A DNA stretch of 36,863 bases from Bacteroidota bacterium (lineage in GTDB: Bacteria > Bacteroidota > Bacteroidia > Chitinophagales > BACL12): positions 1 to 36,863 of the forward strand of contig JAKQVC010000160.1 of NCBI GenBank assembly GCA_029571985.1, read 5' to 3'. The notes beneath the pieces are model-generated. The model was not told the DNA's origin. It saw nothing but the letters and a program-made list of their open reading frames with translations, and did no database searches. Position 1 is the first letter of the stretch; each line of letters begins with the position of its first letter. Below, in pieces: positions 4,228 to 34,506 of the stretch. A program made the position numbers and the translations under genes.

Positions 4228-4239
4228 CAAACAGCAACA

Positions 4240-17991: not shown

Positions 17992-18022
17992 ATTATTAGA
18001 TATTAAATTTAAATCCAATAAG

Positions 18023-18264: not shown

Positions 18265-19722
18265 TTATTCAATTACGATACTGCGGGTAATGGTTTGTTC
18301 ATTACCAATAATTTTAACTAAGTATATACCTTCAGCTGTTCCGCTGTTCAGGTTGATTGTTTCCTGAATGGCACCATTTGTTACTGGAGCCTGCATGCGA
18401 TACACTTCTGCACCGCTCAGGTTATACACCAATATATCTGCACTTGTTTCATTTTCGCTTAAGGCAGCTTCAACGGTAAAAGAACCGGTAGAAGGGTTAG
18501 GATACAAGGAAACAATAGCTTCCAGCTGGTCAGATTCTAAACGGCAGGAGGATGTAACTGCTATAGATTTAGATTTGGTACATCCTGCCGCAGTAGTTTC
18601 TTTTAATTTATAGGTACCAATTGATGTAGCCGTATAAACTAAAGGAGCACCTGGAATCAACACACCATTTTTAAACCACTGATAGGTGCTGCCGGCGCCA
18701 ATTTTTCCTTTTAACACAACAGAACCTGTTGCGCAAATATCCAGACTGCCTAAATATTGAATTTTAGGTGCGGGTTTAGATACTGTCAAGGTGGTAGCTG
18801 CCGATTCGGCAAATGCAGTGCCCTGATAGATAACTACAGAATAATTACCTGCCTGATTAGTTGTATAGGTAGCATTGGTAGCACCTGGAATATTCACACC
18901 GTTTTTCTGCCACTGATAACCGGTGTAACCCGCTGTAGCTGTAAACGTTTGAGTTAATCCGGAACAAATCGTTACCGGTCCTGCAGGGGTAATACCTGTT
19001 TCAATATAGTTGCAAGTTCCCCAGATTACTGGATCTAAAGTGGCATCTGCTGAAACTGATAATGCACGGTTGGTGAAACCGAAATTGGTCACCGTGCATG
19101 GGTCACCTTCTGTAAGTGTTTCCTGTCCGGTCCATGCATCATAGGCAAACTTATACTCATAAGTACCAGCACCTAATGGAATGGTAATTTCCCAAATACC
19201 ATCGCTGTTTGCATCGCTCATCGGTGCACAACCACCGCACCAGCCGTTGAAATTGCCGTTTACTTCAGGGGTAGTAAATGGTCCGGCAACACCGTTCATA
19301 TTTACCTGGAAGGTTATATCATATACACCGCCGGCACCGCAATCATCACAGCTTCCCCAGCAAACTAACGGAAGCACAACGTCGCCGCTTACATCTAAAT
19401 AGCGATTCGTAAATCCAAAATTGGTTACTGTGCAGGCAGATCCCGGTATAAGGTTTTCTTGTCCGGCCCAGCTGTCATAAGCAAATTTATATTCATAATA
19501 ACCCGGAGCCAATGGGATGGTTATTTCCCAGATGCCATCCAGATCCGGATCAGTCATAGCAGCACATCCGCCACACCAGCCGTTAAAACTACCGTTTACC
19601 TCTGGTGTCGTATACGGGTCTCCTACTGTATTCATGTTTACCCGAAAGGTAACATTGAATGTTTGTGCCTGGATAGCCAAAATGCTACCTAAAAACAAGG
19701 CTAATGTCAAAAGTCTTTTCAT
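18265..19722 (-). CDS. T9SS protein with two CBM48-like modules and Ig-like domains
   Basis: A 485-residue secreted protein. The signal peptide is MKRLLTLALFLGSILAIQAQ. CBM48-like modules lie at 21-131 and 132-240, each with PEVNG-FNGWCGGC and YYEYKFAYDSW or YEYKFAYDAW; the second has lost one late cysteine (VIWGTC instead of VCWGSC). Two Ig-like segments follow (about 245-316 and 320-393), with GYQWQKNGVNIPGATNATY and STYQWFKNGVLIPGA, the pattern of repeats often found in T9SS adhesin-like proteins. The T9SS sorting domain is at 400-485 (SLYPNPSTGSFTVEA to TRSIVIE). There is no enzyme domain. It is divergent from the Nudix regulator gene and shares its operator type with the five-module gene. 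Confidence 0.85.
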   Translation of the reverse strand: MKRLLTLALFLGSILAIQAQTFNVTFRVNMNTVGDPYTTPEVNGSFNGWCGGCAAMTDPDLDGIWEITIPLAPGYYEYKFAYDSWAGQENLIPGSACTVTNFGFTNRYLDVSGDVVLPLVCWGSCDDCGAGGVYDITFQVNMNGVAGPFTTPEVNGNFNGWCGGCAPMSDANSDGIWEITIPLGAGTYEYKFAYDAWTGQETLTEGDPCTVTNFGFTNRALSVSADATLDPVIWGTCNYIETGITPAGPVTICSGLTQTFTATAGYTGYQWQKNGVNIPGATNATYTTNQAGNYSVVIYQGTAFAESAATTLTVSKPAPKIQYLGSLDICATGSVVLKGKIGAGSTYQWFKNGVLIPGAPLVYTATSIGTYKLKETTAAGCTKSKSIAVTSSCRLESDQLEAIVSLYPNPSTGSFTVEAALSENETSADILVYNLSGAEVYRMQAPVTNGAIQETINLNSGTAEGIYLVKIIGNEQTITRSIVIE

Positions 19723-19754: not shown

Positions 19755-19785
19755 TAAATCTAAAGTCTTTTTGTAAAAATTACAA
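19755..19785 (-). promoter_or_regulatory. Promoter and palindromic operator of the two-module protein gene
   Basis: TTGTAA-AAA-TTACAA (19771-19785) is a perfect inverted repeat. On the minus strand its TTG is 20 bases before TAGATTTA (19762-19755), a near match to TAnnTTTG. It lies 48 bases from the ATG at 19722. The spacing and the following TTACAAAAAGA match the site upstream of the five-module gene. Confidence 0.7.
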
Positions 19786-19794: not shown

Positions 19795-19842
19795 AAGTAT
19801 TTTTTACAAAAAGTACTTTTTTCGCAATTTTCCTTACATTTG
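19795..19842 (+). promoter_or_regulatory. Promoter region of the regulator and glucan operon
   Basis: TACATTTG (19835-19842) is an exact -7 consensus, 18 bases before the ATG at 19861. Upstream are AAGTATTTTTTACAA (19795-19809), matching 12 of 15 positions of the palindrome used by the module protein genes, and a perfect palindrome AAAAAGTACTTTTT (19808-19821). AAAGTATTTTTT and AAAGTACTTTTT also form direct repeats 16 bases apart. This suggests autoregulation and control of the operon; no good -33 TTG is seen. Confidence 0.55.
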
Positions 19843-19860: not shown

Positions 19861-20601
19861 ATGGCCGCTCACGATCCGGATAAAAGGAAAAGTTTAACAT
19901 ACGATATCTATACGGTACCGATAGATACCTTCTTCCAATCAGCATTTTCAATCGATTGTGTTGTGTTTGGCGTGAGTAATAAGCAGTTACAGGTTTTGCT
20001 TATTCAACGCGGTGCAGCTCCTTATAAAAATTATTGGGCCCTGCCGGGCGATTTGGTATTCCCGGAGGAAGACTTAGATACTTCTGCCATTCGCGTGCTA
20101 AAAGACCTGACCAGCCTGTCGAAAATACATTTCAAACAGGTGAAAGCCTTTGGTGAAGTGAACCGACATCCGCTCGGACGCGTAATCACCATTGGGTATT
20201 ATGCCTTTGTTAAAATTGAGGATTATACGCCAAAGGCATCGTTCTGGGCGAAAAAAACAAAATGGCATCCGGTTAATTCTTTGCCTAAACTGGCTTTTGA
20301 CCATAGAGCAATTGTAGATGCCTGTCATGAACGATTACAGGAAGACATCATTCAATATCCAATCTGGAAAGATGTACTGCCAAATAAATTTACACTCACA
20401 CAATTACAAGAAGTTTTTGAAGGTGTGTTGAACACAACGTTCGACAAAGGGAATTTTAGAAAGAAGTTGAGCACCTATCGTTTTCTCAAAGCTTTAAATG
20501 AAATGCAAACCGGCGTATCACACAGACCGGCAGAATTATATACATTTAACGAAAAAGAATTCGAGAAAGCCCGGCAAAAAGGGCATCGGTTCGACTTTTA
20601 A
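19861..20601 (+). CDS. Nudix-fold transcriptional regulator (NrtR/AraR type)
   Basis: 246 residues: a Nudix-like sensor domain (about 25-150) and a C-terminal winged helix (about 165-246; LPNKFTLTQLQEVFEGVL, then DKGNFRKKLS). The Nudix box region reads ALPGDLVFPEEDLDTSAIRV, followed by LKDLTSLS: the REUxEE catalytic glutamates are replaced, so it should not hydrolyse nucleotides. NRHPLGRVITIGYYAFV and LAFDHRAIVDACHERL are typical of Bacteroidota NrtR relatives; some of these sense sugars and control sugar-use operons. The frame extends to a TTG at 19840, but the ATG at 19861 follows the -7 box at a sensible distance. The first enzyme gene begins 9 bases after its stop, so the regulator is probably co-transcribed with the operon it controls. 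Confidence 0.88.
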   Translation: MAAHDPDKRKSLTYDIYTVPIDTFFQSAFSIDCVVFGVSNKQLQVLLIQRGAAPYKNYWALPGDLVFPEEDLDTSAIRVLKDLTSLSKIHFKQVKAFGEVNRHPLGRVITIGYYAFVKIEDYTPKASFWAKKTKWHPVNSLPKLAFDHRAIVDACHERLQEDIIQYPIWKDVLPNKFTLTQLQEVFEGVLNTTFDKGNFRKKLSTYRFLKALNEMQTGVSHRPAELYTFNEKEFEKARQKGHRFDF

Positions 20602-20610
20602 TAATTAATC

Positions 20611-21948
20611 ATGCATAAATTAACCTCGATGCTGTTAATGAGTTTGCTGGGCATATCGCTGCTGCAGGCTCAGTCAGGTGTGGTTCCTGTATCGCTTGTG
20701 CAGAATGCCGATGGGAGTTGGCAATTGATGCGCGATGGTAAACCATATTATATTCAGGGGGTTGGCGGACAAACCCAATTGGAAAAAGCAAAAGAGATCG
20801 GTGCAAATACGATCAGAACCTGGAGTACAGATAATGCAGGGGAAGTGCTGGATGCCGCACACAAACAGGGTTTGACGGTTATGCTGGGATTGTGGGCACA
20901 ACATGAACGTCATGGTTTTAATTACGACGATACGGCAAAAGTGCGCGCGCAACTCAATTACTTTACTGAGGTCGTAAAAAAATATAAAGACCATCCGGCA
21001 TTATTAATATGGGGCATTGGAAATGAAGTGGATTTATTTTACACCAACACAAATGTTTGGTACGCCATTAATGATATTGCAGAAATGATTCATCGCGTCG
21101 ATCCGAATCATCCAACCAGTACCGTTACCGCTGGTCTCGATCCTGCAGAAGTAAAACTTATTCATGAACGCGCACCCGCAATTGATATATATGGTGTCAA
21201 TACCTATGGAGATATTGGAAATGTTAAAGGAAAAATTAAACAATATGGTTGGGATGGTCCTTATATGATTACTGAATGGGGGCCTAATGGACACTGGGAA
21301 GTAAATAAGACGAAGTGGGGCGCACCTGTTGAACAAAGCAGTACGGAAAAAGCACAGTCGTATCGCGAAAGATATGCAAGCGCTATTTTAGGTGATAAAC
21401 CGCAGTGCATTGGCTCGTTTGTCTTTCTCTGGGGATTTAAGCAGGAAACTACTTCTACCTGGTACGGCATGTTTGACGAAAAGAACGCTTCCAGTGAAGC
21501 AGTTGATGTTTTAGCAGAATATTGGAATCCCTCAGCGCTGATAAATACAGCTCCTAAATTGGATTCTGCACGTTTAGATGGAAAAATTAAAGGGGATATA
21601 ATCGTTTTTGATCCCGAAACGCGCGCACAATCTATTGTTTACTGCACAGATAAGGAAGGAGATAAACTTAAATATGTTTGGGAAGTCGTAACTGAAAGCC
21701 GGGATATCAAAGCCGGTGGTGATGCTGAAACACGACCACCCGCTTTAATGGGCATAAGAGGGAAAAAGAAACAAAATACTTTTTCATTCAGAGTGCCAAA
21801 TGATGAAGGAGCTTACAGGTTATTTATTTATGTGTATGACGGCAATAATCATTATGCCTATTGCAATATTCCATTTTATGTGAAGGACCAAAGCAAAATA
21901 AAACCACGTCCGCTATCCTTTAAAAAACAGGAATTATCGTCGAAGTAG
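20611..21948 (+). CDS. Clan GH-A glycoside hydrolase, possibly GH158 endo-beta-1,3-glucanase
   Basis: A 445-residue exported protein (signal peptide ending LLQAQ). A TIM barrel covers about 25-300: YYIQGVGGQTQLEKAKEIGA, TIRTWSTDNAGEVLDAAH, ALLIWGIGNEVDLF with the likely acid/base E139, and YMITEWGPNGHW with the likely nucleophile E222. An Ig-like domain follows (about 310-435; IIVFDPETRAQSIVYCTDKE). The two glutamates are 83 residues apart; from memory this equals the spacing of the catalytic pair reported for the Bacteroides uniformis GH158 laminarinase, and the barrel-plus-Ig layout agrees. The general call could also be 'GH2-type TIM barrel'. GH16-like and GH3 genes in the same operon support a beta-1,3-glucan substrate. 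It lies 9 bases after the regulator gene. Confidence 0.75.
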   Translation: MHKLTSMLLMSLLGISLLQAQSGVVPVSLVQNADGSWQLMRDGKPYYIQGVGGQTQLEKAKEIGANTIRTWSTDNAGEVLDAAHKQGLTVMLGLWAQHERHGFNYDDTAKVRAQLNYFTEVVKKYKDHPALLIWGIGNEVDLFYTNTNVWYAINDIAEMIHRVDPNHPTSTVTAGLDPAEVKLIHERAPAIDIYGVNTYGDIGNVKGKIKQYGWDGPYMITEWGPNGHWEVNKTKWGAPVEQSSTEKAQSYRERYASAILGDKPQCIGSFVFLWGFKQETTSTWYGMFDEKNASSEAVDVLAEYWNPSALINTAPKLDSARLDGKIKGDIIVFDPETRAQSIVYCTDKEGDKLKYVWEVVTESRDIKAGGDAETRPPALMGIRGKKKQNTFSFRVPNDEGAYRLFIYVYDGNNHYAYCNIPFYVKDQSKIKPRPLSFKKQELSSK

Positions 21949-21980
21949 TTATATAAATCAATCATCAAGTAAACTGTTGC

Positions 21981-23933
21981 ATGAAATTCTTTGTACAAGT
22001 TCGCACCGCTTTATGCATTGCTATGTTTTGCTGCATGGTTGATCAGGCATATGCGCAAACGGATACTTCTAACACATCCTCAATTGGATTATTTCCAAAG
22101 TCGGCGCCGTCGAAACTCGAAAAAATTACGGTTTCAGGTTATTATCGTTTTTTCGGTACTTATTCGCAACATGATTTACCTTATGTAATTAATCCAATTA
22201 TCAGTGACACTATTTTACCTCGAAATGTATTTATTGGTGATGATAGTCAGTTACCCAATTTATTGTTAAACATTGCGGGAAGACCTAGCGCTAAAACATC
22301 ATGGGGTTTTGATGTTTATATGTTTCAGTTTTTGCAGGGCAATACGGATGAAGCTTACAGCAATCAGGTAGTGGATTCGCTGCGGCCTTCAATTTTTGCG
22401 CCACGCGATGACCAGCGTCTTGCCGGTAACCTGATTGTGCATCTCGGTATTAATTTATCAGGTACTTATAATACAGATTACGGAACATTTAAATTGCGCG
22501 CAGGTGGTATAAACTGGCATGCACTTACCGATTTAACCATGGCCTCCTTTAAAGGGTATAATCGGTATGTATTATATGAAGATAATCCTTGGGACCCGGT
22601 AGGACAAAATCCGATGAGTCGCTATGAAAAATATTATATAACCGGCGCCGTAGATCAGGATACGCGTTGGGGTAATCGGGCTTTCACCGGATTAATTCTC
22701 GATGGAACACAATTGCCTTATGGATTGCAATTTTCAGGTTTATTAGGCAAAGCGGAAATAAATGGCGGATTCTCGCAAACACCGAACTATTCTTACGGCG
22801 GAAAAATTCAAAAGACTTTTCATAATATTCATTCCATTAGTCTGAATACCATGAACAGCCTCACCTGGGCTGATAGCCTGGCTCAGGAAAGAGTTGGGTT
22901 TCATATGGTAACGGCTGAAGGAATTGCATCCATTGCAAATTTTATAGCTAAAGCAGAATTTGGAATGGGTCAATATATTAGTCCTGCACACAATGGAAAT
23001 TGGGGCGAGGCTATTCAAATCAATATTACCAGTCCGCTCTTTTGGAAGAATACACGCGTTTCTTTACAAGGTTATCGGATTAGTCCTGATGTTATTAATA
23101 ATACCTCAGCATTCATCAACACCTCTGTTAATGAGTATGTTGTAACGGATTTGCCTGCAGGTACCATAGGCAGCTCTGCCGTTCTGCAACCATTTGCCAG
23201 TGCCATGGTCAGATTAGGCCAAATGACAAATAACAGGCAGGGACTTGCACTCAATACTGATATGCAATTTGGTAAACTAAAATGCAGCTTTGCTTTAGGT
23301 GCTTCAGGAGAAATTACAGCTATTTCAAATGAAATAACATACGGCCATCCCGTTAACCAATTTACCCGCACGCGCTTCTGGCGTTTTGCATACCCTACCG
23401 GCGTGGGACCTTATGAGCGATATTCGGTCATTTACAGAGATACCTATGAAACAGTACATCTGTCGGACGACAGCAGTGGCATTGCCGTGAACAAAAAATA
23501 TTTTAATAATGCGGAAGTGCAACTCAAATATCATACGAAAATATTGAATCGCGACTTATACATATTTGGTCTCGGACAATATGCTTCTGTGCAAAGAGAT
23601 CCTGCTGCATTTATTGTCACAAATGAAGATGCTTATATCCGTCAATACGTGCATGAAGTGGAATTATACTATGCAATATTTAGCAAGTTGACTATTTCAG
23701 GCTATTATGGATATGAGCGCACGCTGGGTAATTACCTGACTGATATTGATGAAGAAACAAGACGCCCCAGAAATCAATATGGCAAGGGTCTTGGATGTGG
23801 TATTGATGTTGATATGGGCAAAAATGCCCGACTGTATGTGCGTAACAGGTGGTTTGAGTTTGAAGACACGAGTTTTCAGCAAGACCATTTTAAAGGATAC
23901 GAAACACTCATAGAATATAAACTGTTTTTTTAA
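21981..23933 (+). CDS. Outer-membrane beta-barrel protein, glucan operon
   Basis: A 650-residue protein with a signal peptide (about 25 residues, ending AYAQ). The rest consists of alternating strands of 8-12 residues with aromatic girdle residues (KITVSGYYRFFGTYS, GFDVYMFQFLQ, LTISGYYGYERTLG) and ends in LIEYKLFF, a C-terminal aromatic typical of BAM-folded barrels. It has no TonB box, plug domain or carboxypeptidase-like domain, so it is not a SusC-type transporter. A porin-like or surface-display role for glucan oligosaccharides is inferred from position only. It is 32 bases after the glycosidase gene and 6 bases before another barrel gene. No named family recognised. Confidence 0.75.
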   Translation: MKFFVQVRTALCIAMFCCMVDQAYAQTDTSNTSSIGLFPKSAPSKLEKITVSGYYRFFGTYSQHDLPYVINPIISDTILPRNVFIGDDSQLPNLLLNIAGRPSAKTSWGFDVYMFQFLQGNTDEAYSNQVVDSLRPSIFAPRDDQRLAGNLIVHLGINLSGTYNTDYGTFKLRAGGINWHALTDLTMASFKGYNRYVLYEDNPWDPVGQNPMSRYEKYYITGAVDQDTRWGNRAFTGLILDGTQLPYGLQFSGLLGKAEINGGFSQTPNYSYGGKIQKTFHNIHSISLNTMNSLTWADSLAQERVGFHMVTAEGIASIANFIAKAEFGMGQYISPAHNGNWGEAIQINITSPLFWKNTRVSLQGYRISPDVINNTSAFINTSVNEYVVTDLPAGTIGSSAVLQPFASAMVRLGQMTNNRQGLALNTDMQFGKLKCSFALGASGEITAISNEITYGHPVNQFTRTRFWRFAYPTGVGPYERYSVIYRDTYETVHLSDDSSGIAVNKKYFNNAEVQLKYHTKILNRDLYIFGLGQYASVQRDPAAFIVTNEDAYIRQYVHEVELYYAIFSKLTISGYYGYERTLGNYLTDIDEETRRPRNQYGKGLGCGIDVDMGKNARLYVRNRWFEFEDTSFQQDHFKGYETLIEYKLFF

Positions 23934-23939
23934 GTATAT

Positions 23940-25661
23940 ATGTATACGATAAAGATCTTCTGCGCAAGCTGTTTAATTGGGATATGTTCTCAAATTACAC
24001 TTGCACAAACAACAGACAAGGTTACTGTTAACGGCTCGTCGCGCGCTTTGTTTTTTGCTGACGATTTGCAACAGGAATTAACCGAACCGGATACCGTAAC
24101 TGCACCGAAAGAAAATAGTGGGCATACACTGGTTGATCTAGGGGTCAATATTCGTCCGCTGGATCATATTGAAATCCAGGGTATGGTGCGCGTGCGAAAT
24201 GATTTTGGCGGTTTTTGGGGTTCTGGCATAACCTTCGATGTGCGACAATTATATGTAAAAGGTATCATTGCTGATGTTGTGCGTTATCAGTTGGGCGATA
24301 TTGATTATGTGCTGACACCATTCACCATGTATAATCAAAAGGAGTATTTTTTACAGCATACTCCTTCAACATTTAAGCAGTTTCAGCAGACTATTGATTA
24401 TGATATGTTTTTTAATGATGATGCCACACGTCGTCAGCAAGGTGCAGCAGTCGATTTCTCTTTATTGTTTTCTGACCTGGTGCAGGAATTGCAATTTAGT
24501 GGCATGACATCCCGACAACAGCCAGCTGCAGCCGGTCAAAATGAAAGACTTTTTTCTGCTGCTAATATCACACTCATTCAAAGTAAGTACTTTGCCATCG
24601 GATATAATTTTTCTAACCTGTATGATATTGCAGGTACTTCTAAAAACACGGATATCTTTCACAATCCCGTGCATACCATTTCTGCTAAGTCTTCTATAGA
24701 AAAAGAAAACTGGAAAATTGCCCTGAGCGGCGAAACAGGTGCATCTAAAATGTGGTATAGCGAAAATGCAGAGGCGCCTTCGCTCAATGATTATTTTATG
24801 GAAGGCAAAGTAAAAGTAAGTTATACCCCGATTCCGCTTACCGCAACCGTGCAATACGTTTCCGTAGGGCCGGATTTCAGAAGTCCCGGTGCACAAACCA
24901 AACAGGTAAATTTTGATGCTTATCCGCGCGCATACGATCGTATCACAAATGATCAACTGTTGCGCACATTTGATTACTATGATTTGGTGAGGGATGTTGC
25001 CCTATACAATATGCGTATTGAATCCGGACTCATGAACATGGACCCGCGATATGATAACATCACCCCATATGGATTGGCAACGCCAAATCGTCAGGGCGTT
25101 CAGGCCGGCCTGCAATATGCTGATAAGTTAGACAGATTTACTATAAAGGCCGGTTATCTCAGTCAAACTGAAATCAGAGGCCAGGGAACAACGTTGTTGC
25201 GCTCGTTTGGTCGTTTTAGCTCTGACCTGACGATTAAACCTTCCGCATTCCTTAAACAGTATGCAAAACAAATTGTTATTGATGTGCACATGCATATGGA
25301 TCAAACATCACGCGATGCAGAAGGTAATGTGCCGGCAGTTGATTTGCAAACAAACGTGATTGCAGGAAATATAGCTGTTGAAACTTTTAAACAATTAGAT
25401 GTTTTATTCGGCATGCAGCAAATCAGTTATAGTGGTTTTGAATTTGCTCCTTTGCGGGATGAATTTGGTCAGATAATCTATTTCAATCCGCTCCAAACTG
25501 ATGGCAGTCAGACCCTGGTTGGCGGTGGATTGCAATATCGCTTTACTGAATTAATCAGTACGAGTGCTATTTTTAGTAAATTCTCTATGTCGGAAGCGAT
25601 TTCAGAACTTCCTCCATATTCAATTGGCACATTTGCCTTCATTTTTAAAATGGATTTTTAA
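23940..25661 (+). CDS. Second outer-membrane beta-barrel protein, glucan operon
   Basis: A 573-residue protein; the signal peptide ends ITLAQ. It contains many amphipathic strands (HIEIQGMVRVRNDFGGFWG, KYFAIGYNFSNLYDIAG, PLTATVQYVSVGPDF) and ends in YSIGTFAFIFKMDF, a C-terminal aromatic as in BAM substrates. The N-terminal DKVTVNGSSRALFFADDLQQ resembles the first strand of the 650-residue barrel (KITVSGYYRFFGTYS), but overall similarity by eye is low. There is no plug domain and no TonB box. It starts 6 bases after the previous stop and ends 1 base before the lipoprotein gene. It probably forms an uptake or display unit with its neighbours; no named family recognised. Confidence 0.75.
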   Translation: MYTIKIFCASCLIGICSQITLAQTTDKVTVNGSSRALFFADDLQQELTEPDTVTAPKENSGHTLVDLGVNIRPLDHIEIQGMVRVRNDFGGFWGSGITFDVRQLYVKGIIADVVRYQLGDIDYVLTPFTMYNQKEYFLQHTPSTFKQFQQTIDYDMFFNDDATRRQQGAAVDFSLLFSDLVQELQFSGMTSRQQPAAAGQNERLFSAANITLIQSKYFAIGYNFSNLYDIAGTSKNTDIFHNPVHTISAKSSIEKENWKIALSGETGASKMWYSENAEAPSLNDYFMEGKVKVSYTPIPLTATVQYVSVGPDFRSPGAQTKQVNFDAYPRAYDRITNDQLLRTFDYYDLVRDVALYNMRIESGLMNMDPRYDNITPYGLATPNRQGVQAGLQYADKLDRFTIKAGYLSQTEIRGQGTTLLRSFGRFSSDLTIKPSAFLKQYAKQIVIDVHMHMDQTSRDAEGNVPAVDLQTNVIAGNIAVETFKQLDVLFGMQQISYSGFEFAPLRDEFGQIIYFNPLQTDGSQTLVGGGLQYRFTELISTSAIFSKFSMSEAISELPPYSIGTFAFIFKMDF

Positions 25662-25662
25662 T

Positions 25663-26667
25663 ATGCGTCGCATTACTTTTTTCCTTGTAGCTGCATTTGC
25701 CATATTGCTAAATGCTTGTCGTAAAGACGCCGACTTGTTTGATGGTCCGTCATTAAATGATATCTATGGCGAATTCTCATTTGTTGAGCCTTTGCTGATT
25801 ACCAATACCGAAGTGGATTTCGCCGGCGGACAGTCAACTGCATTTACGGCTGAATTTTCAAAGAATGTGAATTGGAAAATCAGTATCAAAGGCCTGAGCT
25901 CAGGTGCTGAAAAAATTATTTCGGGAACCAGTAATGTATTGTCTGTAGATAATACAACCTGGACTGGCAGCACCACCATTTTACCTATGTTCAGAGCTGA
26001 AATGTGTGCAGTAGAATTAACCTTTTCTACAGAACCTGATACTGTGCGCGACACTTTAGAAATTCTGGCGCCAAAATCTAATGCGGGTTTATTGCTGGCT
26101 GATTTTGAATCCGGTTTTAATGCGGGTTGGGAACCTTTTGTGCAGGCAGGCGCTGATATGAGCTTTTCAGTTACCAATTCCGTAACAGCCGGACAAGGCC
26201 AATATTATTATGATATGGGTGGCGCAGTGGATTGGGACTGGCTGATTGGATTAATTGATATTCCGGCTACTGCTTATGGCAGCAGCACCTTCGCATTGAA
26301 TAGTAATCCGGATAATGTATTTTTTAATGTGATGTTATACAATCCGGTGGGTATTACAAATAGTATTGTTTTGTTCCAGTTCAGAGAAGATGATAATGGG
26401 GATGGTGCTTTTTCAGAAGGAACTGAAGATATGTTTTCGGTTGAAGTAAAAATGACTGAAACGGGATGGCAATTGATATCCAGAAATTATGCTGAATTAG
26501 CAACAATTGTAAATGGTGTACCGGTTGATCCACTGGGTAATGGATTACACGAACCGGATAAATTATTCCAGATAAGTATTTTAATGCTCGCAAATCCAAG
26601 TTCCGGTTATTCGCAGGCATTAATGGATTATATGATATTTACTGAAGGCGCAGCACTCGAACCATGA
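25663..26667 (+). CDS. Lipoprotein, probable surface glycan-binding protein
   Basis: A 334-residue lipoprotein: MRRITFFLVAAFAILLNAC gives a lipobox LNAC with C19. Two beta-rich parts follow: about 45-150 (LITNTEVDFAGGQSTAFTAE, NWKISIKGLSSGAEKII), Ig-like, and about 155-334 (LLADFESGFNAGWEPFVQAG to SQALMDYMIF), whose ends resemble a CBM-type jelly roll. This layout is similar to SusE/F or SGBP-B-like lipoproteins but without a SusC/D pair nearby. The open frame extends to 25564 within the barrel gene, but the ATG at 25663, 1 base past the previous stop, gives the signal peptide. It overlaps the next gene by 4 bases. The glucan-binding role is inferred. Confidence 0.75.
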   Translation: MRRITFFLVAAFAILLNACRKDADLFDGPSLNDIYGEFSFVEPLLITNTEVDFAGGQSTAFTAEFSKNVNWKISIKGLSSGAEKIISGTSNVLSVDNTTWTGSTTILPMFRAEMCAVELTFSTEPDTVRDTLEILAPKSNAGLLLADFESGFNAGWEPFVQAGADMSFSVTNSVTAGQGQYYYDMGGAVDWDWLIGLIDIPATAYGSSTFALNSNPDNVFFNVMLYNPVGITNSIVLFQFREDDNGDGAFSEGTEDMFSVEVKMTETGWQLISRNYAELATIVNGVPVDPLGNGLHEPDKLFQISILMLANPSSGYSQALMDYMIFTEGAALEP

Positions 26668-27926
26668 TAATGAACAGGCGACAAAATATTTTTCCGGGTT
26701 TACTGTTTTGCATGGCGCTGAGCGGATGTGTAGAAGTAAAACAGGCTGCCCTTTACCCGCAGCCCAATACGGAAGCTGCAGAGCCGCATATCGCTAATTG
26801 TTACGCACTACAAATTTTCGACGACCATATTACTAGCGATATCTGGTATACGCAAAATACATCCTGTATTCAAATTGATGAATTGAAATCCGGACAATAT
26901 GCCGGAGAAGGCGCCTTACATATCAAATGGAATAAACCACAAAGCGAATGCGACTGGATTGGTATGGGCGTTGGATGGGATGATTGGTTTGCAAAAGATT
27001 TGCATCAGATCGTGGATAGCGCTGCTATTCAATTTTATGTGCGCAATGTCAGCGGCGTTACGAAAGGCCTGCCCTGGGCAATCGCTTTTGAAGATTATGG
27101 TAATGCGCAGGCATGGTGTGGTATGTCACCCAATTTTATAGAAAATGGTGAAATTACAGAAAACTGGACTAAAGTAACTATCCCTCTTTCTGAATTTGAC
27201 TACGACATGCAGGAGCCTGACATGCGCACGGTGAAACAAATGATTATTCAGTTTGAAGGTGATGGAGAAATTTATCTGGATGATATAAAACTGGTCCGGA
27301 GTAGTGGCAGCACAAATAAATCTGCGTCAGTATATCCCTACATAGCGCCTTTTACAGAAGGCACGAAAAACTCTGCACTCGTTTCAATTCCATTGTCATT
27401 CGAACTTGAATCCGGGAGCATAGGAGTGGCATATACTGCTAATCAATTGCATGTGCAGGCAAAAATTATAGATAACACACCGATGCAAAATAGTAAATCC
27501 GGTACTGATATCTGGAACGGTGATGCGATTGAAATAGCCTTTGCCACAAATCCGGAGGCAAACCGCTTGCGCAAAACTTTTCTGTTATCTGATAAGCACA
27601 TCGGAATTCGGTGTACGGATAAACCCGTTATTTGGGATTGGTCAAGAAATGTAGAGATTCAAGGCGAGGTTTATATTACAAAAACAGCTGATGGTTATGT
27701 GGTTGAGGCGTCTATTCCTTGGAGTGCATTAGACTGCTCACCATGGCAAGCCGGTAAATGGTATGGCTTTGAATGTGCTATAGATAATGGCGATGCAAAA
27801 GGTAGATTACATCAAATGCGCTGGAACGATAATTATAATGCTGATTTTCATATTAACCCTTCCCTCTGGGGAAAGATAGAAGTTAACTCTTCGTGGACTA
27901 ATTGGTCTGATATAGAAGTAAAATAA
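26664..27926 (+). CDS. Lipoprotein with CBM-type domain and CBM9-like domain
   Basis: 420 residues; lipobox LSGC with C22. The N-terminal domain (about 45-215; ALHIKWNKPQSECDWIGMGV, VTIPLSEFDYDM, GEIYLDDIKLV) resembles CBM11/CBM30-type beta sandwiches. The C-terminal domain (about 225-415) fits family CBM9/DOMON: SIGVAYTANQLHVQAKIID, DIWNGDAIEIAFATNP, DGYVVEASIPWSALD, WYGFECAIDN. No catalytic motif is seen. It starts with ATGA overlapping the previous gene; ATG at 26670 (MNRRQN) is an alternative. It is probably surface-exposed or periplasmic and binds glucan chains or chain ends together with the preceding lipoprotein; the substrate is inferred from the operon. Confidence 0.8.
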   Translation: MIMNRRQNIFPGLLFCMALSGCVEVKQAALYPQPNTEAAEPHIANCYALQIFDDHITSDIWYTQNTSCIQIDELKSGQYAGEGALHIKWNKPQSECDWIGMGVGWDDWFAKDLHQIVDSAAIQFYVRNVSGVTKGLPWAIAFEDYGNAQAWCGMSPNFIENGEITENWTKVTIPLSEFDYDMQEPDMRTVKQMIIQFEGDGEIYLDDIKLVRSSGSTNKSASVYPYIAPFTEGTKNSALVSIPLSFELESGSIGVAYTANQLHVQAKIIDNTPMQNSKSGTDIWNGDAIEIAFATNPEANRLRKTFLLSDKHIGIRCTDKPVIWDWSRNVEIQGEVYITKTADGYVVEASIPWSALDCSPWQAGKWYGFECAIDNGDAKGRLHQMRWNDNYNADFHINPSLWGKIEVNSSWTNWSDIEVK

Positions 27927-27930
27927 ATTT

Positions 27931-30198
27931 ATGGTTATGCAATTTACCCATGCGCTCAGGCATTTTGTATCTGCGACTTTCATCGGGGTGAGTATGATGT
28001 CTGTGTCGGCTCAATCTCCTTACGACCCGGATATCGAAGCACTCATAAAAAATATGACCATCGAAGAAAAGGTGGGACAGATGACGCAATTAAATTTGGA
28101 TGTCATCAGTAAAGGTGAAATATACAACCTGGTTGAACCGCATCAACTGGATGCGGAAAAATTAAAGAAAGCACTCGTTGACTATCATGTTGGATCTATA
28201 TTAAATTGTGGTGGACATGCTTATACCCGAGAGCACTGGCGTGAAATAATTGGTGAGATCCAACGCGTTGCCACAAAAGAAACGCGATTGGGTATTCCAA
28301 TTATTTATGGTATTGATGCGATTCACGGGGCAAATTATACATTAGGCTCCACGCTATTTCCTCAGCAAATAGGTCAGGCTGCTACCTTCAATGAAATGTT
28401 GGTTGCACGTGCTGCTGAAATTACCGCATATGAAGTACGTGCCAGCGGCATTACATGGAATTTTTCCCCGGTATTAGATTTAATGCGCAATCCGCAGTGG
28501 TCAAGGTGCTTTGAAACTTTTGGCGAAGATGTGCTACTTGCAAAAAATATGACACACGCGGCCATTACCGGATATCAGGGGGCTACCCTAACAAATGATC
28601 CCGTAAAAGTGGCTGCATGTATGAAACATTTTTTGGGATACAGTATGCCGCGCACCGGAATGGATCGAACACCAGCTTATATTTCTGATATCCTGTTGCG
28701 TGAATATTTTCTGCCCACTTTTCAGGAGGCCGTGCAATCAGGGGCAGCAACCGTTATGATTAACAGCGGTGAGATAAATGGTATTCCTGTGCATGCGAAT
28801 AAGAAAATTGTAACGGATTTATTGCGCACAGAATTGGGTTTTGAAGGTGTAGCTGTTACCGATTGGGAAGACATTATGAAACTCAATAACTTTCATAAAG
28901 TGGCCCCGACTATGAAGGATGCTGTGCGCATGGCAATCGATGCCGGAATCGATATGAGTATGGTGCCCAATAATTATGAATTCTGTGATTTATTGGTGGA
29001 ACTGGTAAAAGAAGGCACCATTACAGAAGAACGCCTGGATGTTTCTGTGCGACGTATTTTAATATTAAAAAAGAAATTAGGTTTATTCGAAAATCCGATG
29101 CCTGCTGCGGATAATAATTATGCTGCTTTCGGCAACGCATCAGGTAAATTGGTTAGCCAGCTTACGGCAGAAGAGTCTATCACCTTGTTAAAAAACGCCA
29201 ATCAACTATTACCACTTGATGCTAAAACTAAAATTCTGGTTACCGGTCCTGGTGCTGATAGCTATACCATGTTGAACGGTGCATGGACACGCACCTGGCA
29301 AGGTACAGATACTAAATGGGATGACCCGTCTGTTGCATCCATATACGACGCATTAAAAAATATGGGTGGCGAAAATGTTCAATATGTGCAAGGATGTACC
29401 ACTTCAGCACTATCTGATTATCAGGCAGCATTAACTGCCGCGCAGCAAGTGGATGTAATTATTGCCTGTATGGGCGAATTGCCTTCAACGGAGATACCGG
29501 GAAATATTCAGGACATGCACCTGGATAAAGCACAGCTGGATTATATAAGCATGCTTTCAGCAACAGGTAAACCGTTAATCTTATTACTCACTGAAAGTCG
29601 GCCAAGAATAATCAGAGATATTGAGCCTAACTGTAATGCCATCCTGCAATTATATTATCCCGGCGATATGGGAGGTGTTGCTGCTGCAAATATTATTTAT
29701 GGAAAAGTAAATCCATCCGGTAAGTTGCCTTATACGTATCCAAAATATGCAAATGCCCTTTTGTGGTATGATCATAAACACACAGAAACCATGGATGTAG
29801 ATTTTGGTAATGATGCCTTTGATCCACAATGGACATTTGGATATGGATTGAGTTATACAATATTTGAATATTCCAATCTCTATATCAGTAATGATACCAT
29901 GACCTCTGCAGGTTTAACCGTATCTGTAACTGTAAAAAATACGGGAAGCCGGGTTGGAAAAGAGGTGGTGCAATTATACTTATCTGACCAGTTTGCAAGT
30001 ATTACACCATCTGTTAAAAGACTAAAAGCATATCAAAAAATCGAATTGCAACCACAGGAATCCCGTGTCATTACTTTTCAGCTCACACCGGAGCAATTGC
30101 AATTTGTGGGTGCCGACCTTCAATGGATTGCAGAGCCTGGCTGGTTTGATGTGTCCATTAATGGAAGCAAAACATCATTTTATTATAAATCTAACTAA
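27931..30198 (+). CDS. GH3 family beta-glucosidase
   Basis: A 755-residue exported enzyme (signal peptide ending MSVSAQ). It is a retaining GH3 with an N-terminal barrel (MTIEEKVGQM at 42-51; GIDAIHGANYTLGSTLFPQ; FSPVLDLMRNPQWSRCFETF; KHFLGYS) and the nucleophile D311 in GVAVTDWEDI. The alpha/beta sandwich domain starts near 405 (ITLLKNANQLLPL; PGNIQDMHLDKAQ), and the C-terminal Fn3-like domain begins near 645 (VTVKNTGSRVGKEVVQLYLS). The length fits periplasmic BglX-type enzymes. In this operon it should release glucose from oligosaccharides made by the endo-enzymes. It begins 4 bases after the CBM9 lipoprotein gene and its stop abuts the GH16-like gene. Confidence 0.92.
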   Translation: MVMQFTHALRHFVSATFIGVSMMSVSAQSPYDPDIEALIKNMTIEEKVGQMTQLNLDVISKGEIYNLVEPHQLDAEKLKKALVDYHVGSILNCGGHAYTREHWREIIGEIQRVATKETRLGIPIIYGIDAIHGANYTLGSTLFPQQIGQAATFNEMLVARAAEITAYEVRASGITWNFSPVLDLMRNPQWSRCFETFGEDVLLAKNMTHAAITGYQGATLTNDPVKVAACMKHFLGYSMPRTGMDRTPAYISDILLREYFLPTFQEAVQSGAATVMINSGEINGIPVHANKKIVTDLLRTELGFEGVAVTDWEDIMKLNNFHKVAPTMKDAVRMAIDAGIDMSMVPNNYEFCDLLVELVKEGTITEERLDVSVRRILILKKKLGLFENPMPAADNNYAAFGNASGKLVSQLTAEESITLLKNANQLLPLDAKTKILVTGPGADSYTMLNGAWTRTWQGTDTKWDDPSVASIYDALKNMGGENVQYVQGCTTSALSDYQAALTAAQQVDVIIACMGELPSTEIPGNIQDMHLDKAQLDYISMLSATGKPLILLLTESRPRIIRDIEPNCNAILQLYYPGDMGGVAAANIIYGKVNPSGKLPYTYPKYANALLWYDHKHTETMDVDFGNDAFDPQWTFGYGLSYTIFEYSNLYISNDTMTSAGLTVSVTVKNTGSRVGKEVVQLYLSDQFASITPSVKRLKAYQKIELQPQESRVITFQLTPEQLQFVGADLQWIAEPGWFDVSINGSKTSFYYKSN

Positions 30199-31038
30199 AT
30201 GAACATGCGCATATCATCGATATTTGGATTTGTATGTATCGGCTTGCTGGCTTTTGGATGTAAGCAATCGGAGCCTGAAGACGTTCTGGGAAGAACAGGT
30301 GATGTTGTCAACTTTTCCGGATACTTATGGGATGTGAAAATCGCTGAGTCCTATCAGGTGGGCCCGGGTCCGAATTATTTTTCGGGCTATTACGAGGATG
30401 TATTTATTGATGAGCAGGGCTATCTGCACATGCGCATTGCCGAGCATGACGGCAAATGGTTTTCAAGCGAGGTGATTACTCAACAAAATATGGGTTATGG
30501 AAAATACACCTTCGTTGTGCAGGGCGACCTTGAGCAAATTCCTGAAAATATTACGCTTGGATTATTTACCTGGGACAATAATACTTTTTTTGATCAGGCA
30601 AATAGTGAAGTGGATATTGAAATATCGAAATGGGGAGATAAAGAAGAAAAAAATACTTTATTGTATAGTGTGCAACCGGTAAATTTCGGACCATACTATC
30701 CCGAACGCACACATCTCGCCGAAACACCTGAAGAAAGCTTAATAGGAGTAACTACACATACCTTTGTGTGGACCGATACCTTAATTATCTGGAAAAGCTA
30801 TTATGGAGATTCTGAACAACCCGAAGATTTAATTACTGAATGGAGTTTCGACCTCGATAATCCGGCACGAGTAAAAAACGAAAATGGCAATAGTTCGGCG
30901 CCAATCGTAATTCCGGCTCCGGGCGAAACAACAAATGCAAGAATTAATTTTTGGCTGCTCCCATGGGTGGCAACTGCGCCAACAGACGGAAAGGAACAGG
31001 AAGTGGTCATACGTCGCTTTGCCTATGTGCCGATGTAA
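30199..31038 (+). CDS. GH16-like lipoprotein, probable endo-beta-glucanase
   Basis: 279 residues with a lipobox LAFGC (C21). The GH16 active-site strand is visible as NSEVDIEISKWG, with E137 and E141 as candidate nucleophile and acid/base in the ExDxE form without the beta-bulge, as in lichenases. The jelly-roll fold is supported by YGKYTFVVQGDLEQIPENI and the final INFWLLPWVATAPTDG and EVVIRRFAYVPM. Laminarinases and licheninases of GH16 cut beta-1,3 or mixed-linkage glucans, but this protein is short and diverged, so the exact specificity is uncertain. It is the last gene of the operon; its ATG follows the GH3 stop with no gap, and a strong hairpin lies 52 bases after it. Confidence 0.78.
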   Translation: MNMRISSIFGFVCIGLLAFGCKQSEPEDVLGRTGDVVNFSGYLWDVKIAESYQVGPGPNYFSGYYEDVFIDEQGYLHMRIAEHDGKWFSSEVITQQNMGYGKYTFVVQGDLEQIPENITLGLFTWDNNTFFDQANSEVDIEISKWGDKEEKNTLLYSVQPVNFGPYYPERTHLAETPEESLIGVTTHTFVWTDTLIIWKSYYGDSEQPEDLITEWSFDLDNPARVKNENGNSSAPIVIPAPGETTNARINFWLLPWVATAPTDGKEQEVVIRRFAYVPM

Positions 31039-31090
31039 TCAAGTATTATTCAATGCGTAAATTTTGATTTTTCTGGTTATAGATTAAATG

Positions 31091-31120
31091 AAATGTCAGG
31101 GATAATTCCCTGACATTTTT
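31091..31120. terminator. Terminator at the end of the glucan operon
   Basis: AAATGTCAGGGA (31091-31102) pairs over 12 bases with TCCCTGACATTT (31107-31118), with loop TAAT, and is followed by T residues on the plus strand. It lies between convergent genes, so it may also slow minus-strand transcripts from the T9SS gene at 31135. Confidence 0.9.
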
Positions 31121-31134: not shown

Positions 31135-32751
31135 CTATTGTTTAACCAGATAGGTGCTCTGACTATTTCCTGAAATATCAAAAGCCTGTATCATATAAAC
31201 ACCCGGAGATAACTGACTGATGTCTGTCGACTGCACACCATTCATTTCCATAAACATAACAGGTTGTCCCTGCAGGTTAACAATCTGTATAGTATATGGA
31301 AGAGCATCATTGAGTGAAAGGGTAATCTGATCTCGTGCCGGATTTGGATACATTTCTAATTGCAGTTGCTCAAATGAGTAAACAGTTGTGGTTGTGGTGT
31401 CTTCAGTAAGTGTGTCGCCACTAATATAATTCAGATTGAAGGCAACTATTTCTTCATAAAAGAATGTGCGCGCTGCACCAATAACATTATCATCGGCAGT
31501 AGGTATCAAAGTAAATTCTGTATAAAACGGCGCGTAAGTTGACGATAAAACCTGAATCGGTTCAGGCCATTCGGTTGAGCCGTCAGGCCGTACTTTTTGA
31601 GCATAGAAAGCGCCACCCGCAACATAACAAACTACAACATCTCCACCTGAAGTTATGACCGATTTTATTACAGGGATATACAAAGGGGCGTCATCTACAT
31701 ATAAGGGCTCATCCCATAAGGTGTTTCCGTTTTCATCGAATTTTTGCATATAAATGCCGGTTGCATCAGGATTGTAATCCTGCCAACTTATATAATGGTC
31801 GTTTCCTGAACCGGAAAAAGCAATGCCCTCCTGAATTGCCGGATCAGAAATAATGACGCGACATGAATCAGGCCAAGCTAATGTACCGGCCGCATCTGAT
31901 TTGGCAGCATACACATCTCTGCTTGCGGATGTCCATGCCGACATTAACGCGCCATCAGCATCCAGATGAATATCGTAATAGGGATGTCCGGCATATGTTC
32001 CGCCTATTCCATCAGTACAGGATGTAATCAGTGTAGGCGATGCTAAATTTAATGTGCCATCAGCATTAAAATGTTGCAAATGCGCACCATAATATTCCCA
32101 ACTGATATAACCTCCGCCGGCCCCATCAGGTAATAAGTGTAAATTACCTGCTGAACCTAATCCGCAATCCCAAACAAGAATACCATTATATCCCCAGGTA
32201 AGCGAGCCGTCCATTTCAACTTTCGATAAGTATAAGTCGTCATAACCATAACCAGTTAATACATAACTGATATAACAACCAGTTCCATACGATTGCATGG
32301 TTAGTGAATTACCATTACTGCCCCATATATAGTCTTCAGGTCCTGCAACAAGAATATTTTCAGGAAAGGAGAAATATCCGTCTGCACCTAAAACATTTGC
32401 CTCAACCGAATCATTATAACCGATCCATGCAACCATAACTGAGTGATCATCGAGCAATGCTGCCTGCATATTGGTAGCCGATTGGGTAAGAGCAGTCAGT
32501 TGCCTGCCGTTACCTTCCCACATCGGTGTTCCATTTGTATCGAGGTGTTGCCCGAATACCTGGGCAATGCCACTCCTGTTATCAATCCAAAATACATAAT
32601 AGCCGGTTTCGCCATCTCCCAGCACAACAGGCTTTGATTGCAAAAAGGGATCATTACAGATCATTAAAGGATTTTCCGGGTCGTTTGACCATTGCCCAAA
32701 AGTGGCCACAGTTATGTGAAAACAGGCAAGCAGTGTTATAATACGTAACAT
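31135..32751 (-). CDS. T9SS protein with propeller-like repeats
   Basis: 538 residues from the ATG at 32751 (the open frame reaches 32838); signal peptide MLRIITLLACFHITVATFGQ. The mature part has repeating strands such as PVVLGDGETGYYVFWIDNRS, VFGQHLDTNGTPMWEGNGRQ and IYMQKFDENGNTLWDEPLYV, in which 'xDxxGxxxW' turns recur about every 50-60 residues, as in beta-propeller proteins. The C-terminal domain LQLEMYPNPARDQITLSLND to SQSTYLVKQ is a T9SS type A sorting domain. No catalytic residues are recognisable and the function is unknown. A -7 box TACTTTTG lies 19 bases upstream of the start. Confidence 0.8.
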   Translation of the reverse strand: MLRIITLLACFHITVATFGQWSNDPENPLMICNDPFLQSKPVVLGDGETGYYVFWIDNRSGIAQVFGQHLDTNGTPMWEGNGRQLTALTQSATNMQAALLDDHSVMVAWIGYNDSVEANVLGADGYFSFPENILVAGPEDYIWGSNGNSLTMQSYGTGCYISYVLTGYGYDDLYLSKVEMDGSLTWGYNGILVWDCGLGSAGNLHLLPDGAGGGYISWEYYGAHLQHFNADGTLNLASPTLITSCTDGIGGTYAGHPYYDIHLDADGALMSAWTSASRDVYAAKSDAAGTLAWPDSCRVIISDPAIQEGIAFSGSGNDHYISWQDYNPDATGIYMQKFDENGNTLWDEPLYVDDAPLYIPVIKSVITSGGDVVVCYVAGGAFYAQKVRPDGSTEWPEPIQVLSSTYAPFYTEFTLIPTADDNVIGAARTFFYEEIVAFNLNYISGDTLTEDTTTTTVYSFEQLQLEMYPNPARDQITLSLNDALPYTIQIVNLQGQPVMFMEMNGVQSTDISQLSPGVYMIQAFDISGNSQSTYLVKQ

Positions 32752-32769
32752 ATTGTTTGATTTATAAAG

Positions 32770-32777
32770 CAAAAGTA
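32770..32777 (-). promoter_or_regulatory. Candidate -7 box (TACTTTTG)
   Basis: On the minus strand this is TACTTTTG, an exact TAnnTTTG match, with 18 bases to the ATG at 32751. No clear TTG -33 is seen about 20 bases further upstream. Confidence 0.4.
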
Positions 32778-32856
32778 GAGTCGCCCTGCTGCCTAAACAG
32801 GTAGACTTTTTTGCATTTGTAGCAAGACACTTGGGCAATGTCAGCCTGTTATGTAT

Positions 32857-32886
32857 AAAAAAAGCCCCGCCGAAAGTGGCAGGGCT
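32857..32886 (-). terminator. Intrinsic terminator of the second propeller-like gene
   Basis: AGCCCCGCC (32863-32871) pairs with GGCAGGGCT (32878-32886) with one C-A mismatch and loop GAAAGT. On the minus strand a run of T residues follows. It is 21 bases past the stop codon at 32908. Confidence 0.85.
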
Positions 32887-32907
32887 ATTGAAGGCTGAGC
32901 AACTATA

Positions 32908-34506
32908 CTATTGCTTTATAAATGGTTGCGCGATATAATCACCTTGCGTATTTATCAATTGGATTACATAGGTTCCGCATGGCAGGGTTGATATATCCAG
33001 TGTAGTTTCAAATGTCATGTCTTTTGTTGACAAAAGGTTTCCCTGTAAATCAAATAGTTGTAAGCGCTCTCCTGCGAAAGCACCTGCATCCACCTGAATA
33101 TAGCTTGTTGCCGGATTAGGCCATAAGGCAAGTTGTTGTGCAGCAATTTCCGTTTGCTGAATGGGTACAAGTTCAGAAGCTACTTTGCAGATAAAAATAT
33201 CTGATGCACCCTGTGAATAGATCGTTGAATAACCAGGAACGGTTACATCCGAATTAAAGACGCCCGCTACTAAAGCACCGCCCCGCTCATCGCTGGTAAT
33301 ATTATAAGCATGTGCACCGCTGGTACTGGTGAGTGGAGTTAATTCCATAGCACTGCCATCGAAATTATAGCCAATCATAAAACCACTTGTTCCGGTGCTT
33401 AATAATTGCAGGCCACCAAACTCTGCATCACCATTTACTGTTCCGCAAACAAATACACCATTGCTGCCTACCACTAAATCATACACATAATCCCAGTCAT
33501 AACCGCCACCGGTTTGATACCAGTTTACAGCACCGTTGTCCGGATTAATTTCCAACAAACACATATCAGTTAATCCGAGGGTGTTAATAGTAAATGCATC
33601 TACATACATGCCATCATCAACAGAAAGGCTGAGGTATATATTGCCATTATCTGCAATTCCCAATCCGGCAGGCATACGATTGTTCCCATCATCACCCAAT
33701 ACATTTACCCATACAGGCGATCCTTCTGAGTCTGTTTTTAAAATAAAAGCATCCTCATTGCCATAACTGTTAAAAGAGATGCCCTCAAAAGTGAAATTGG
33801 AAAAAAATCTGCCGGTGATGAGTATATTATTTTCCGCATCAATGGCAACCTTGCTCGAATATTCAAGATCAAGTCCCGGTAATACTTTAATCCATAACGG
33901 CGTTCCGTCTGACGCATATTTTCCGAAAATAATATCGCGGTCACCATATTCGGGTTGTTCTTCTCCGTTAAACGTAAATGGATTACTTATTTCACCAAGA
34001 AAAATAATACTTCCTGTATGGTCTATAGCTAATTGATAGTAATTTGCTGATCCGCTTTCACCTCTAGCCCAGAGCACATTCCCTTCCTTGTCGTATCGCG
34101 CAATAAATGGGTTACCTGAAGCATCATTTGTTAGCGTAATATTTCCAAACTGTGCATCAGCATTAAAATAAATGCCGCTTATGCAATATCCGCCATCAGG
34201 TGTAGTTATTAAATCGTATGCGGCGTAAAAGGCGTCTGATGACTCACCTTTTAGCCAAAGGATATTTCCGTTTTTGTCAAATTTCGCCACATATAAATCG
34301 GAATCGTTGCCGTTAAGTGTTAAGCCGTCAATTGTAATTGAAGTATTGTAGATTCCGGTTATATAATAATTCCCTTCAACATCTGCTGCAAATCCTGCAT
34401 AGTTTTCTCCGGTTTCGGTACCAATGCGATTTAACCAGACAGGCTGGGAAAAACCGGTTATACTTACAATTAATAATACTAAAGTTGCTAAGTTTCTAAA
34501 ATACAT
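32908..34506 (-). CDS. T9SS protein with SBBP-like propeller repeats
   Basis: 532 residues from the ATG at 34506 (the open frame reaches 34569); signal peptide MYFRNLATLVLLIVSITGFS. About seven repeats of 50-60 residues carry patterns such as DLYVAKFDKNGNILWLKG, PFIARYDKEGNVLWARG, DIIFGKYASDGTPLWIKV and DAFILKTDSEGSPVWVNV, each followed by a GNIYLS or GGYCISG-like strand. This is the SBBP-type beta-propeller repeat found in many secreted Bacteroidota proteins. The C-terminus LALWPNPATSYIQVDAGAFA to IAQPFIKQ is a T9SS sorting domain. The function is unknown. It resembles the next gene downstream in design, and each appears to have its own terminator. Confidence 0.82.
   Translation of the reverse strand: MYFRNLATLVLLIVSITGFSQPVWLNRIGTETGENYAGFAADVEGNYYITGIYNTSITIDGLTLNGNDSDLYVAKFDKNGNILWLKGESSDAFYAAYDLITTPDGGYCISGIYFNADAQFGNITLTNDASGNPFIARYDKEGNVLWARGESGSANYYQLAIDHTGSIIFLGEISNPFTFNGEEQPEYGDRDIIFGKYASDGTPLWIKVLPGLDLEYSSKVAIDAENNILITGRFFSNFTFEGISFNSYGNEDAFILKTDSEGSPVWVNVLGDDGNNRMPAGLGIADNGNIYLSLSVDDGMYVDAFTINTLGLTDMCLLEINPDNGAVNWYQTGGGYDWDYVYDLVVGSNGVFVCGTVNGDAEFGGLQLLSTGTSGFMIGYNFDGSAMELTPLTSTSGAHAYNITSDERGGALVAGVFNSDVTVPGYSTIYSQGASDIFICKVASELVPIQQTEIAAQQLALWPNPATSYIQVDAGAFAGERLQLFDLQGNLLSTKDMTFETTLDISTLPCGTYVIQLINTQGDYIAQPFIKQ

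Follow-up and report, generated by a model that had tools for sequence, protein, structure and literature searches.

Contig JAKQVC010000160.1 of a Bacteroidota genome (assembly GCA_029571985.1), whose 36,863 nucleotides form the window of this study, carries an operon of eight plus-strand genes at 19861-31038. We read this operon, with a probability of about 0.58, as a polysaccharide utilization locus (PUL) that has two plugless beta-barrels in place of SusC/SusD and whose substrate is a beta-1,3-glucan of the laminarin kind, possibly also mixed-linkage glucan. Searches for glycan loci in Bacteroidota rely on the SusC/SusD pair as their hallmark, and this rule therefore does not identify a cluster without the pair as a locus for uptake. 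A preliminary description of the same DNA had suggested a different uptake design here, and a conserved cassette, barrels without a plug and the lack of SusC/SusD support this idea. The most likely account is a SusCD-independent system for the capture and uptake of beta-glucan, in which the barrels would be the route of transport.

The eight open reading frames (ORFs) follow each other with gaps of 9, 32, 6, 1, -4, 4 and 0 bp, which agrees with the spacing of -4 to 32 bases given before. The operon begins with NUD, a regulator of the NrtR/AraR type with a degenerate Nudix ligand domain and a winged helix-turn-helix (19861-20601), followed by a GH158 endo-beta-1,3-glucanase with a signal peptide, predicted to be periplasmic (20611-21948). 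Then come two large plugless beta-barrels, BAR1 (21981-23933) and BAR2 (23940-25661), and two lipoproteins: LP1, predicted to be at the surface, with an N-terminal domain and a CBM11-like domain (25663-26667), and CBM9LP, with CBM30 and CBM9 domains and possibly facing the periplasm (26664-27926). A GH3 beta-glucosidase with a signal peptide (27931-30198) and a divergent GH16 lipoprotein endo-glucanase with an ExDxE motif (30199-31038) complete the set. The single strong terminator reported earlier is found as an intrinsic terminator at 31090-31119 on the plus strand (13-pair stem and T-rich tail), the strongest terminator-like site of this strand in the scanned region.

Both proteins previously taken for outer-membrane barrels are large barrels in AlphaFold2 models, BAR2 with a pLDDT of 91 and a pTM of 0.86 (alignment of 59 sequences) and BAR1 with 77 and 0.76 (56 sequences); about 22 strands were counted for each from the DSSP strings of the models. 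In these models the barrel of BAR2 begins right after the signal peptide and that of BAR1 about 25 residues past it, with a conserved GxFPK motif preceding strand 1 of BAR1. Neither barrel matches a Pfam or NCBIfam family over cut-off, and no match to Plug, TonB box or TonB_dep_Rec was found by hmmscan in the two proteins or their relatives, so that they do not class as TonB-dependent transporters. According to Foldseek and VIA-align, the nearest folds of the barrels are usher, OprD/Occ, AlgE, TonB-transporter and SusC barrels, those of the BAR2 model being usher, OprD/Occ, AlgE and SusC barrels. When the barrels of TonB transporters are taken from just past the plug, the BAR1 model can be superposed on them (PirA: Z 14.7, root mean square deviation 3.0, 356 residues; Cir: Z 13.7, 3.1, 351 residues); the scores of usher barrels are no lower (Z 16.6). 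Large barrels match many other barrels in fold searches; the superpositions of these models speak for size and fold, not function, and we claim no family relationship from them. The profiles of BAR1, BAR2 and LP1 found no sequence relative in the PDB, and a paralogy of BAR1 and BAR2 was not detectable by profile alignment (hhalign probability 8%). Judged by the usual topology, long conserved stretches (181-232 and 445-506 in BAR1, 124-163 and 310-383 in BAR2) lie on the outer side, from where they probably reach into the lumen or contact partners. The models are single-chain and do not bear on any BAR1-BAR2 complex.

To find related loci, the single BAR1 sequence was of no use as a query, while an alignment of BAR2 was productive: its profile matched at least 282 contigs in GTDB species genomes (one genome per species), mostly metagenome-assembled genomes (MAGs) of uncultured species. 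We retrieved 80 of the 282 contigs and analysed 92 loci; since a barrel served to recruit each of these, the statistics given for them are conditional on it. BAR1, BAR2 and LP1 are encoded side by side in nearly every neighbourhood on contigs that are long enough, usually with GH158, GH3 or GH16 nearby; in L023 BAR1 was overlooked by the ORF caller and recovered by profile. In total BAR1 is present in 88 of the 92 loci, LP1 in 89, CBM9LP in 80, GH158 in 72, GH3 in 53, the operon-type GH16 in 50, the regulator in 46, and the secreted protein X25b, encoded upstream of the operon, in 42. Wherever both members of a pair are present they are adjacent and co-directional (BAR1-BAR2 88/88, BAR2-LP1 89/89, LP1-CBM9LP 79/79). 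The core GH158-BAR1-BAR2-LP1-CBM9LP is a fixed cassette, and a search for the same order in other Bacteroidota, which the preliminary description had proposed, thus shows it to be conserved across the phylum rather than due to chance. Canonical GH16, GH30, sugar-porter MFS, SSS and FucP-type MFS are further recurrent neighbours. Among viral contigs and plasmids no relative of BAR2 was found.

The linkage of the barrels to GH158 is exclusive. The search for BAR2 covered 395 genomes of the phylum, that for BAR1 199 relatives. In an unbiased test both profiles were run independently over the 395 genomes, and the same six were matched; one additional BAR2 match is a fragment of 62 residues (E 4e-4). 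GH158 occurs in all six barrel genomes as compared to 46 of the 395 overall (hypergeometric 1.8e-6, or 1.6e-5 excluding the window's own genome), figures which overstate independence because phylogeny is ignored. As the barrels never occur apart from GH158 in these genomes, gene content does not suggest barrels unrelated to growth on glucan; such barrels would have spoken against the idea of a different uptake design.

Regarding the carriers themselves, the only retrieved one recorded as a named strain is Phaeocystidibacter luteus LMG 25704 (L075, NZ_WBVO01000011.1), where the cassette stands together with SSS, MFS and GH30 in the order GH158-SSS-BAR1-BAR2-LP1-CBM9LP-GH16-MFS-GH16-GH30. A single SusD was detected in this strain. 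Several MAGs titled 'Chryseobacterium gleum', 'Chitinophaga pinensis' or 'Sphingobacterium thalpophilum' (L053, L054, L060, L061, L067, L070 and others) have closely similar cassettes and look mislabelled at the species level. In distant cassettes (L025:6060-7076, L026:6058-7071, L027:14515-15909, L033, L035:2271-3599) a secreted carbohydrate-binding-like protein ('FxDFxxxRxxxYG'), absent from the type seen in the window, precedes the cassette.

The reported absence of SusC/SusD from the locus was confirmed: no match to SusD_RagB (PF07980) or RagA_SusC (TIGR04056) exists on the window's contig (C35), and by this mark the locus is not a canonical Bacteroidota PUL. The genome possesses three SusC/SusD pairs, on contigs C222, C234 and C56, and sequence inspection of their neighbours revealed peptidase, amino-acid, acetyltransferase, type IX secretion system (T9SS), aldehyde-dehydrogenase and Lrp-type genes. 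Near these pairs there is no glycosidase, no relative of the operon's enzymes and no exact copy of the operator described below; a pair elsewhere under the same regulator site, which would have argued for ordinary uptake of the same glucan, was therefore not encountered among the three. Likewise the 92 cassette loci contain no SusD and no adjacent SusC, and the only full TonB-dependent receptor among them is one protein at the edge of the L025 locus, apart from the cassette. As a control we looked at GH158 in 20 genomes without the cassette, where a SusC/SusD pair within 10 kb was found only in L168, and L167 has a SusC at the locus edge. GH158 without nearby SusC/SusD is common, and therefore such an absence alone is not diagnostic, whereas the barrel cassette is.

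Studying the enzymes, the glycosidase assigned to clan GH-A before is more precisely a GH158 of this clan. Its product matches PDB entries 9oro (E 7e-96) and 6pal (BuGH158, E 1e-74) with the catalytic glutamate motifs GNE and TEWGP aligned; by Pfam it is GH2/GH-A-like, so the GH158 assignment comes from the PDB. It is the only GH158 gene of the genome. Most of its relatives lack a lipobox, in contrast to BuGH158 of Bacteroides uniformis, whose signal peptide is of type II (PMC7157763). The GH3 product was correctly named before (Pfam Glyco_hydro_3, 4e-71; PDB 5jp0, E 1e-177). Gene 8 encodes a lipoprotein of 279 amino acids (lipobox CKQSEPED) which itself has no Pfam match. However, its earlier designation as GH16-like holds through its relatives, 8 of 32 of which match PF00722 (GH16; best 1.6e-6), and in the alignment of the family profile to lichenases of the Bacillus type the ExDxE motif is preserved. 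E137, D139 and E141 are invariant in the alignment of relatives. On the catalytic motif and the profile match we count it as a member of GH16. No second GH16 was found in the genome by PF00722 search, and a canonical GH16 is present in 22 other cassette loci. The motif is of the lichenase/XTH type (ExDxE) and not of the laminarinase type (ExDxxE), and possibly the protein represents a new GH16 subfamily.

Beta-1,3-glucan is a storage sugar of algae and fungi, and the class includes laminarin, a major marine storage polymer. The locus holds the enzymes to be expected for this class, a GH158 with its catalytic residues, a GH16 and a GH3, and beta-1,3-glucan as the predicted substrate is well supported by the GH158 sequence. 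The substrate class proposed earlier can thus be retained but has to be widened: because ExDxE is lichenase-type, mixed-linkage glucan may possibly be included beside laminarin.

The lipobox cysteine of LP1 (C19) is followed by RKDAD, and relatives have C-KTDDE-like sequences. This resembles C-X-K-(D/E)2, the surface-export signal of Bacteroidetes (PMC5080379), and LP1 is therefore predicted to be surface-exposed. The C-terminal half of LP1 relatives matches CBM_11 weakly (13 of 39 at E<0.1, best 1e-4). CBM9LP has Pfam matches to CBM9_1 (6e-18) and CBM30 (9e-8); CBM9LP proteins mostly lack acidic residues at the position of the export signal and are therefore predicted to face the periplasm. 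Two lipoproteins, one of them CBM9-like, had been described, and the structure prediction and family search recommended for them and the barrels agree with this: LP1 is CBM11-like, CBM9LP combines CBM30 and CBM9, and the barrels are plugless and outside named families.

The regulator NUD matches NrtR_WHD (2e-21), AraR_C (3e-11) and, weakly, NUDIX (1e-7) in Pfam, and its Nudix signature has RVLKDL in place of REUXEE. The gene had been called a Nudix-fold regulator; a Nudix domain is indeed present but degenerate, and from Pfam and an alignment of 22 relatives the protein is of the NrtR/AraR type. Upstream lies an exact palindrome TTGTA-N5-TACAA (operator 1, TTGTA-AAAAT-TACAA, 19771-19785). A probable second, half-matching operator (AAGTA-TTTTT-TACAA, 19795-19809) was read from the sequence just before a -7 promoter element, TACATTTG (19835-19842, plus strand), also found by reading, of the type TAnnTTTG which we take to be the Bacteroidota -7 consensus. 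Because this element overlaps TTG 19840, a regulator start at that codon was rejected in favour of ATG 19861. Another exact operator (TTGTA-ATAAT-TACAA, 18039-18053) is located in the X25b promoter, 21 bp before the ORF start.

X25b (15454-18018, minus strand) is a T9SS-secreted protein with five AMPK1_CBM/CBM48/X25-like repeats, and X25a (18265-19722, minus strand), whose intergenic region is common with the operon, is a divergent T9SS-secreted protein with two AMPK1_CBM/CBM48-like repeats (both by Pfam). Among the 46 upstream regions of the regulator the exact motif is present in 14 and a version with at most one mismatch in 23 (shuffle means 0.04 and 1.4), the true number of independent cases being lower because some regions are near-duplicates. 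The 4.0 Mb genome contains 14 exact copies, against 9 for the reversed control pattern. The remaining exact matches were discarded as regulon members, most being inside genes or without a related neighbour, and the motif appears to define a small local regulon consisting of the operon and X25b. At another place in the genome (L193, G000 C218:35792) an extended and nearly perfect copy of the operator, CTTATTGTATTTATTACAATAAG, lies close to the 3' end of an ORF whose product is secreted and possibly GH8-like.

The closest published design is the atypical cellulose PUL chu_1276-1280 of Cytophaga hutchinsonii, an organism whose SusC/SusD play no role in cellulose use (PMC12016534). It has the same layout of two outer-membrane proteins, two proteins like surface glycan-binding proteins (SGBPs) and an endoglucanase; CHU_1276 is a predicted barrel with TonB-transporter hits, and CHU_1279 has a CBM11-like domain comparable to LP1. 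It differs in being directed at cellulose rather than carrying GH158/GH3/GH16, in its control by an extracytoplasmic function (ECF) sigma factor instead of an NrtR/AraR-type regulator, and in being published for Cytophaga and Sporocytophaga only. The window locus has this atypical layout without SusC/SusD, and independence from SusCD is supported, not proven; judged by layout and published description it may work like the cellulose cluster, which is not to say that it is a member of it. The 1,3GUL of B. uniformis has the same enzyme set (GH16, GH158, GH3) and a nonhomologous glycan-binding lipoprotein (PMC7157763), but uses SusC/SusD and a hybrid two-component regulator, neither of which occurs at the window locus. 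NUD resembles the BtAraR/NrtR family in its degenerate Nudix domain with winged helix-turn-helix, its sugar-operon setting and operators before its own operon, which are probably tandem, as described for AraR (PMC4666351). Known members, however, control arabinose/xylose genes, and published AraR sites are AGTGT...ACACT-like as opposed to TTGTA-N5-TACAA. A description of the cassette was not found among open-access papers.

From these data the following mechanism can be proposed. Secreted CBM48-type proteins and LP1 at the surface would hold the glucan, which the GH16 lipoprotein, likewise at the surface, would cut. BAR1 and BAR2 may then serve as substrate-selective, presumably passive channels for the oligosaccharides, with the long conserved loops as lining and gate. 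In the periplasm CBM9LP would retain the oligosaccharides for degradation to glucose by GH158 and GH3. The sugar would be taken up by an MFS or SSS transporter of the inner membrane, whose gene is next to the cassette in many relatives but not here. NUD would repress the operon and X25b from TTGTA-N5-TACAA until a sugar is bound.

Several points weigh against this reading. What the cassette would do in transport, growth and expression is deduced from sequences and models, and BAR1 was modelled at moderate confidence only, with several long poorly modelled loops. A plugless barrel of 22 strands would be a very wide pore and therefore has to be restricted by loops or a partner. The GH16 motif is lichenase-type, and repeats of the AMPK1_CBM/CBM48/X25 fold, which usually binds alpha-glucans, are found in the same regulon as a beta-glucan operon. 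Finally, SusD above the curated cut-off is missing in 6 of 15 carrier genomes and present exactly once in another 6, but this count covers PF07980 and not PF12741, PF12771 and PF14322, and most carrier genomes are incomplete MAGs or drafts.

Alternatively, the barrels and lipoproteins could form a surface complex for glucan adhesion or enzyme docking, with oligosaccharides entering by general porins or another transporter. The two glucan-binding lipoproteins of the operon and the lack of an energy-coupling domain in either barrel would fit such a complex, as would the SGBP-like CHU_1279 of C. hutchinsonii, which matters by its presence more than by binding (PMC12016534). However, two complete large barrels retained in every cassette would be a costly anchor, and inner-membrane sugar transporters stand beside the cassette in many loci, so we regard this as unlikely. 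Less probable still is that BAR1 is an energised TonB-transporter-like barrel with a plug built from its conserved inward loops and with BAR2 or LP1 as a lid: the superposition on PirA and Cir, the conserved GxFPK motif and the high conservation of loops 181-232 and 445-506, which rank with the best conserved stretches of the protein, agree with it, but the hmmscan profiles for Plug, TonB box and TonB_dep_Rec found nothing, and energy coupling cannot be read from a barrel fold by itself.

We give little credence to an ordinary system whose SusC/SusD is encoded elsewhere. Laminarin genes are dispersed in this manner in Maribacter (PMC11345257) and three pairs are available in the genome, yet these stand among peptidase, amino-acid and T9SS genes, with neither a glycosidase nor an operator in the promoter, and six carriers are without PF07980 SusD above cut-off. 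That the barrels export a glucan or serve envelope assembly seems very improbable; AlgE and usher barrels are indeed among the nearest folds, but neither the window ORFs around the operon nor the recurrent neighbour clusters include a glycosyltransferase or synthase, and the neighbours of the cassette are glycosidases and sugar importers.

If, as we prefer, the barrels import oligosaccharides, a part of the laminarin flux would pass through a channel type that is not counted in surveys based on SusC/D. A further generalisation, which we put forward tentatively and at somewhat less than even odds, is that the cassette represents a second outer-membrane glycan uptake machine across the phylum, belonging broadly to one class with the cellulose system of C. 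hutchinsonii. It would consist of an obligate plugless barrel pair and two CBM lipoproteins, one at the surface and one in the periplasm, and would import beta-1,3-gluco-oligosaccharides with no need of SusD and perhaps none of TonB energy. Through the cassette the cellulose cluster of C. hutchinsonii, so far unexplained, would gain a wide family for comparison, in which a cultured carrier is open to genetics.

Outside the operon, two long secreted repeat proteins with T9SS-type tails are encoded just downstream and convergent with it (31135-34569, minus strand), and are rare near other cassettes. At 4240-4794 (minus strand) there is a small REP-associated (Y1, 'MPNHIHLLL') transposase-like gene, adjoined by an ORF with internal repeats (3905-4419, plus strand), and both together are possibly a REP element pair.

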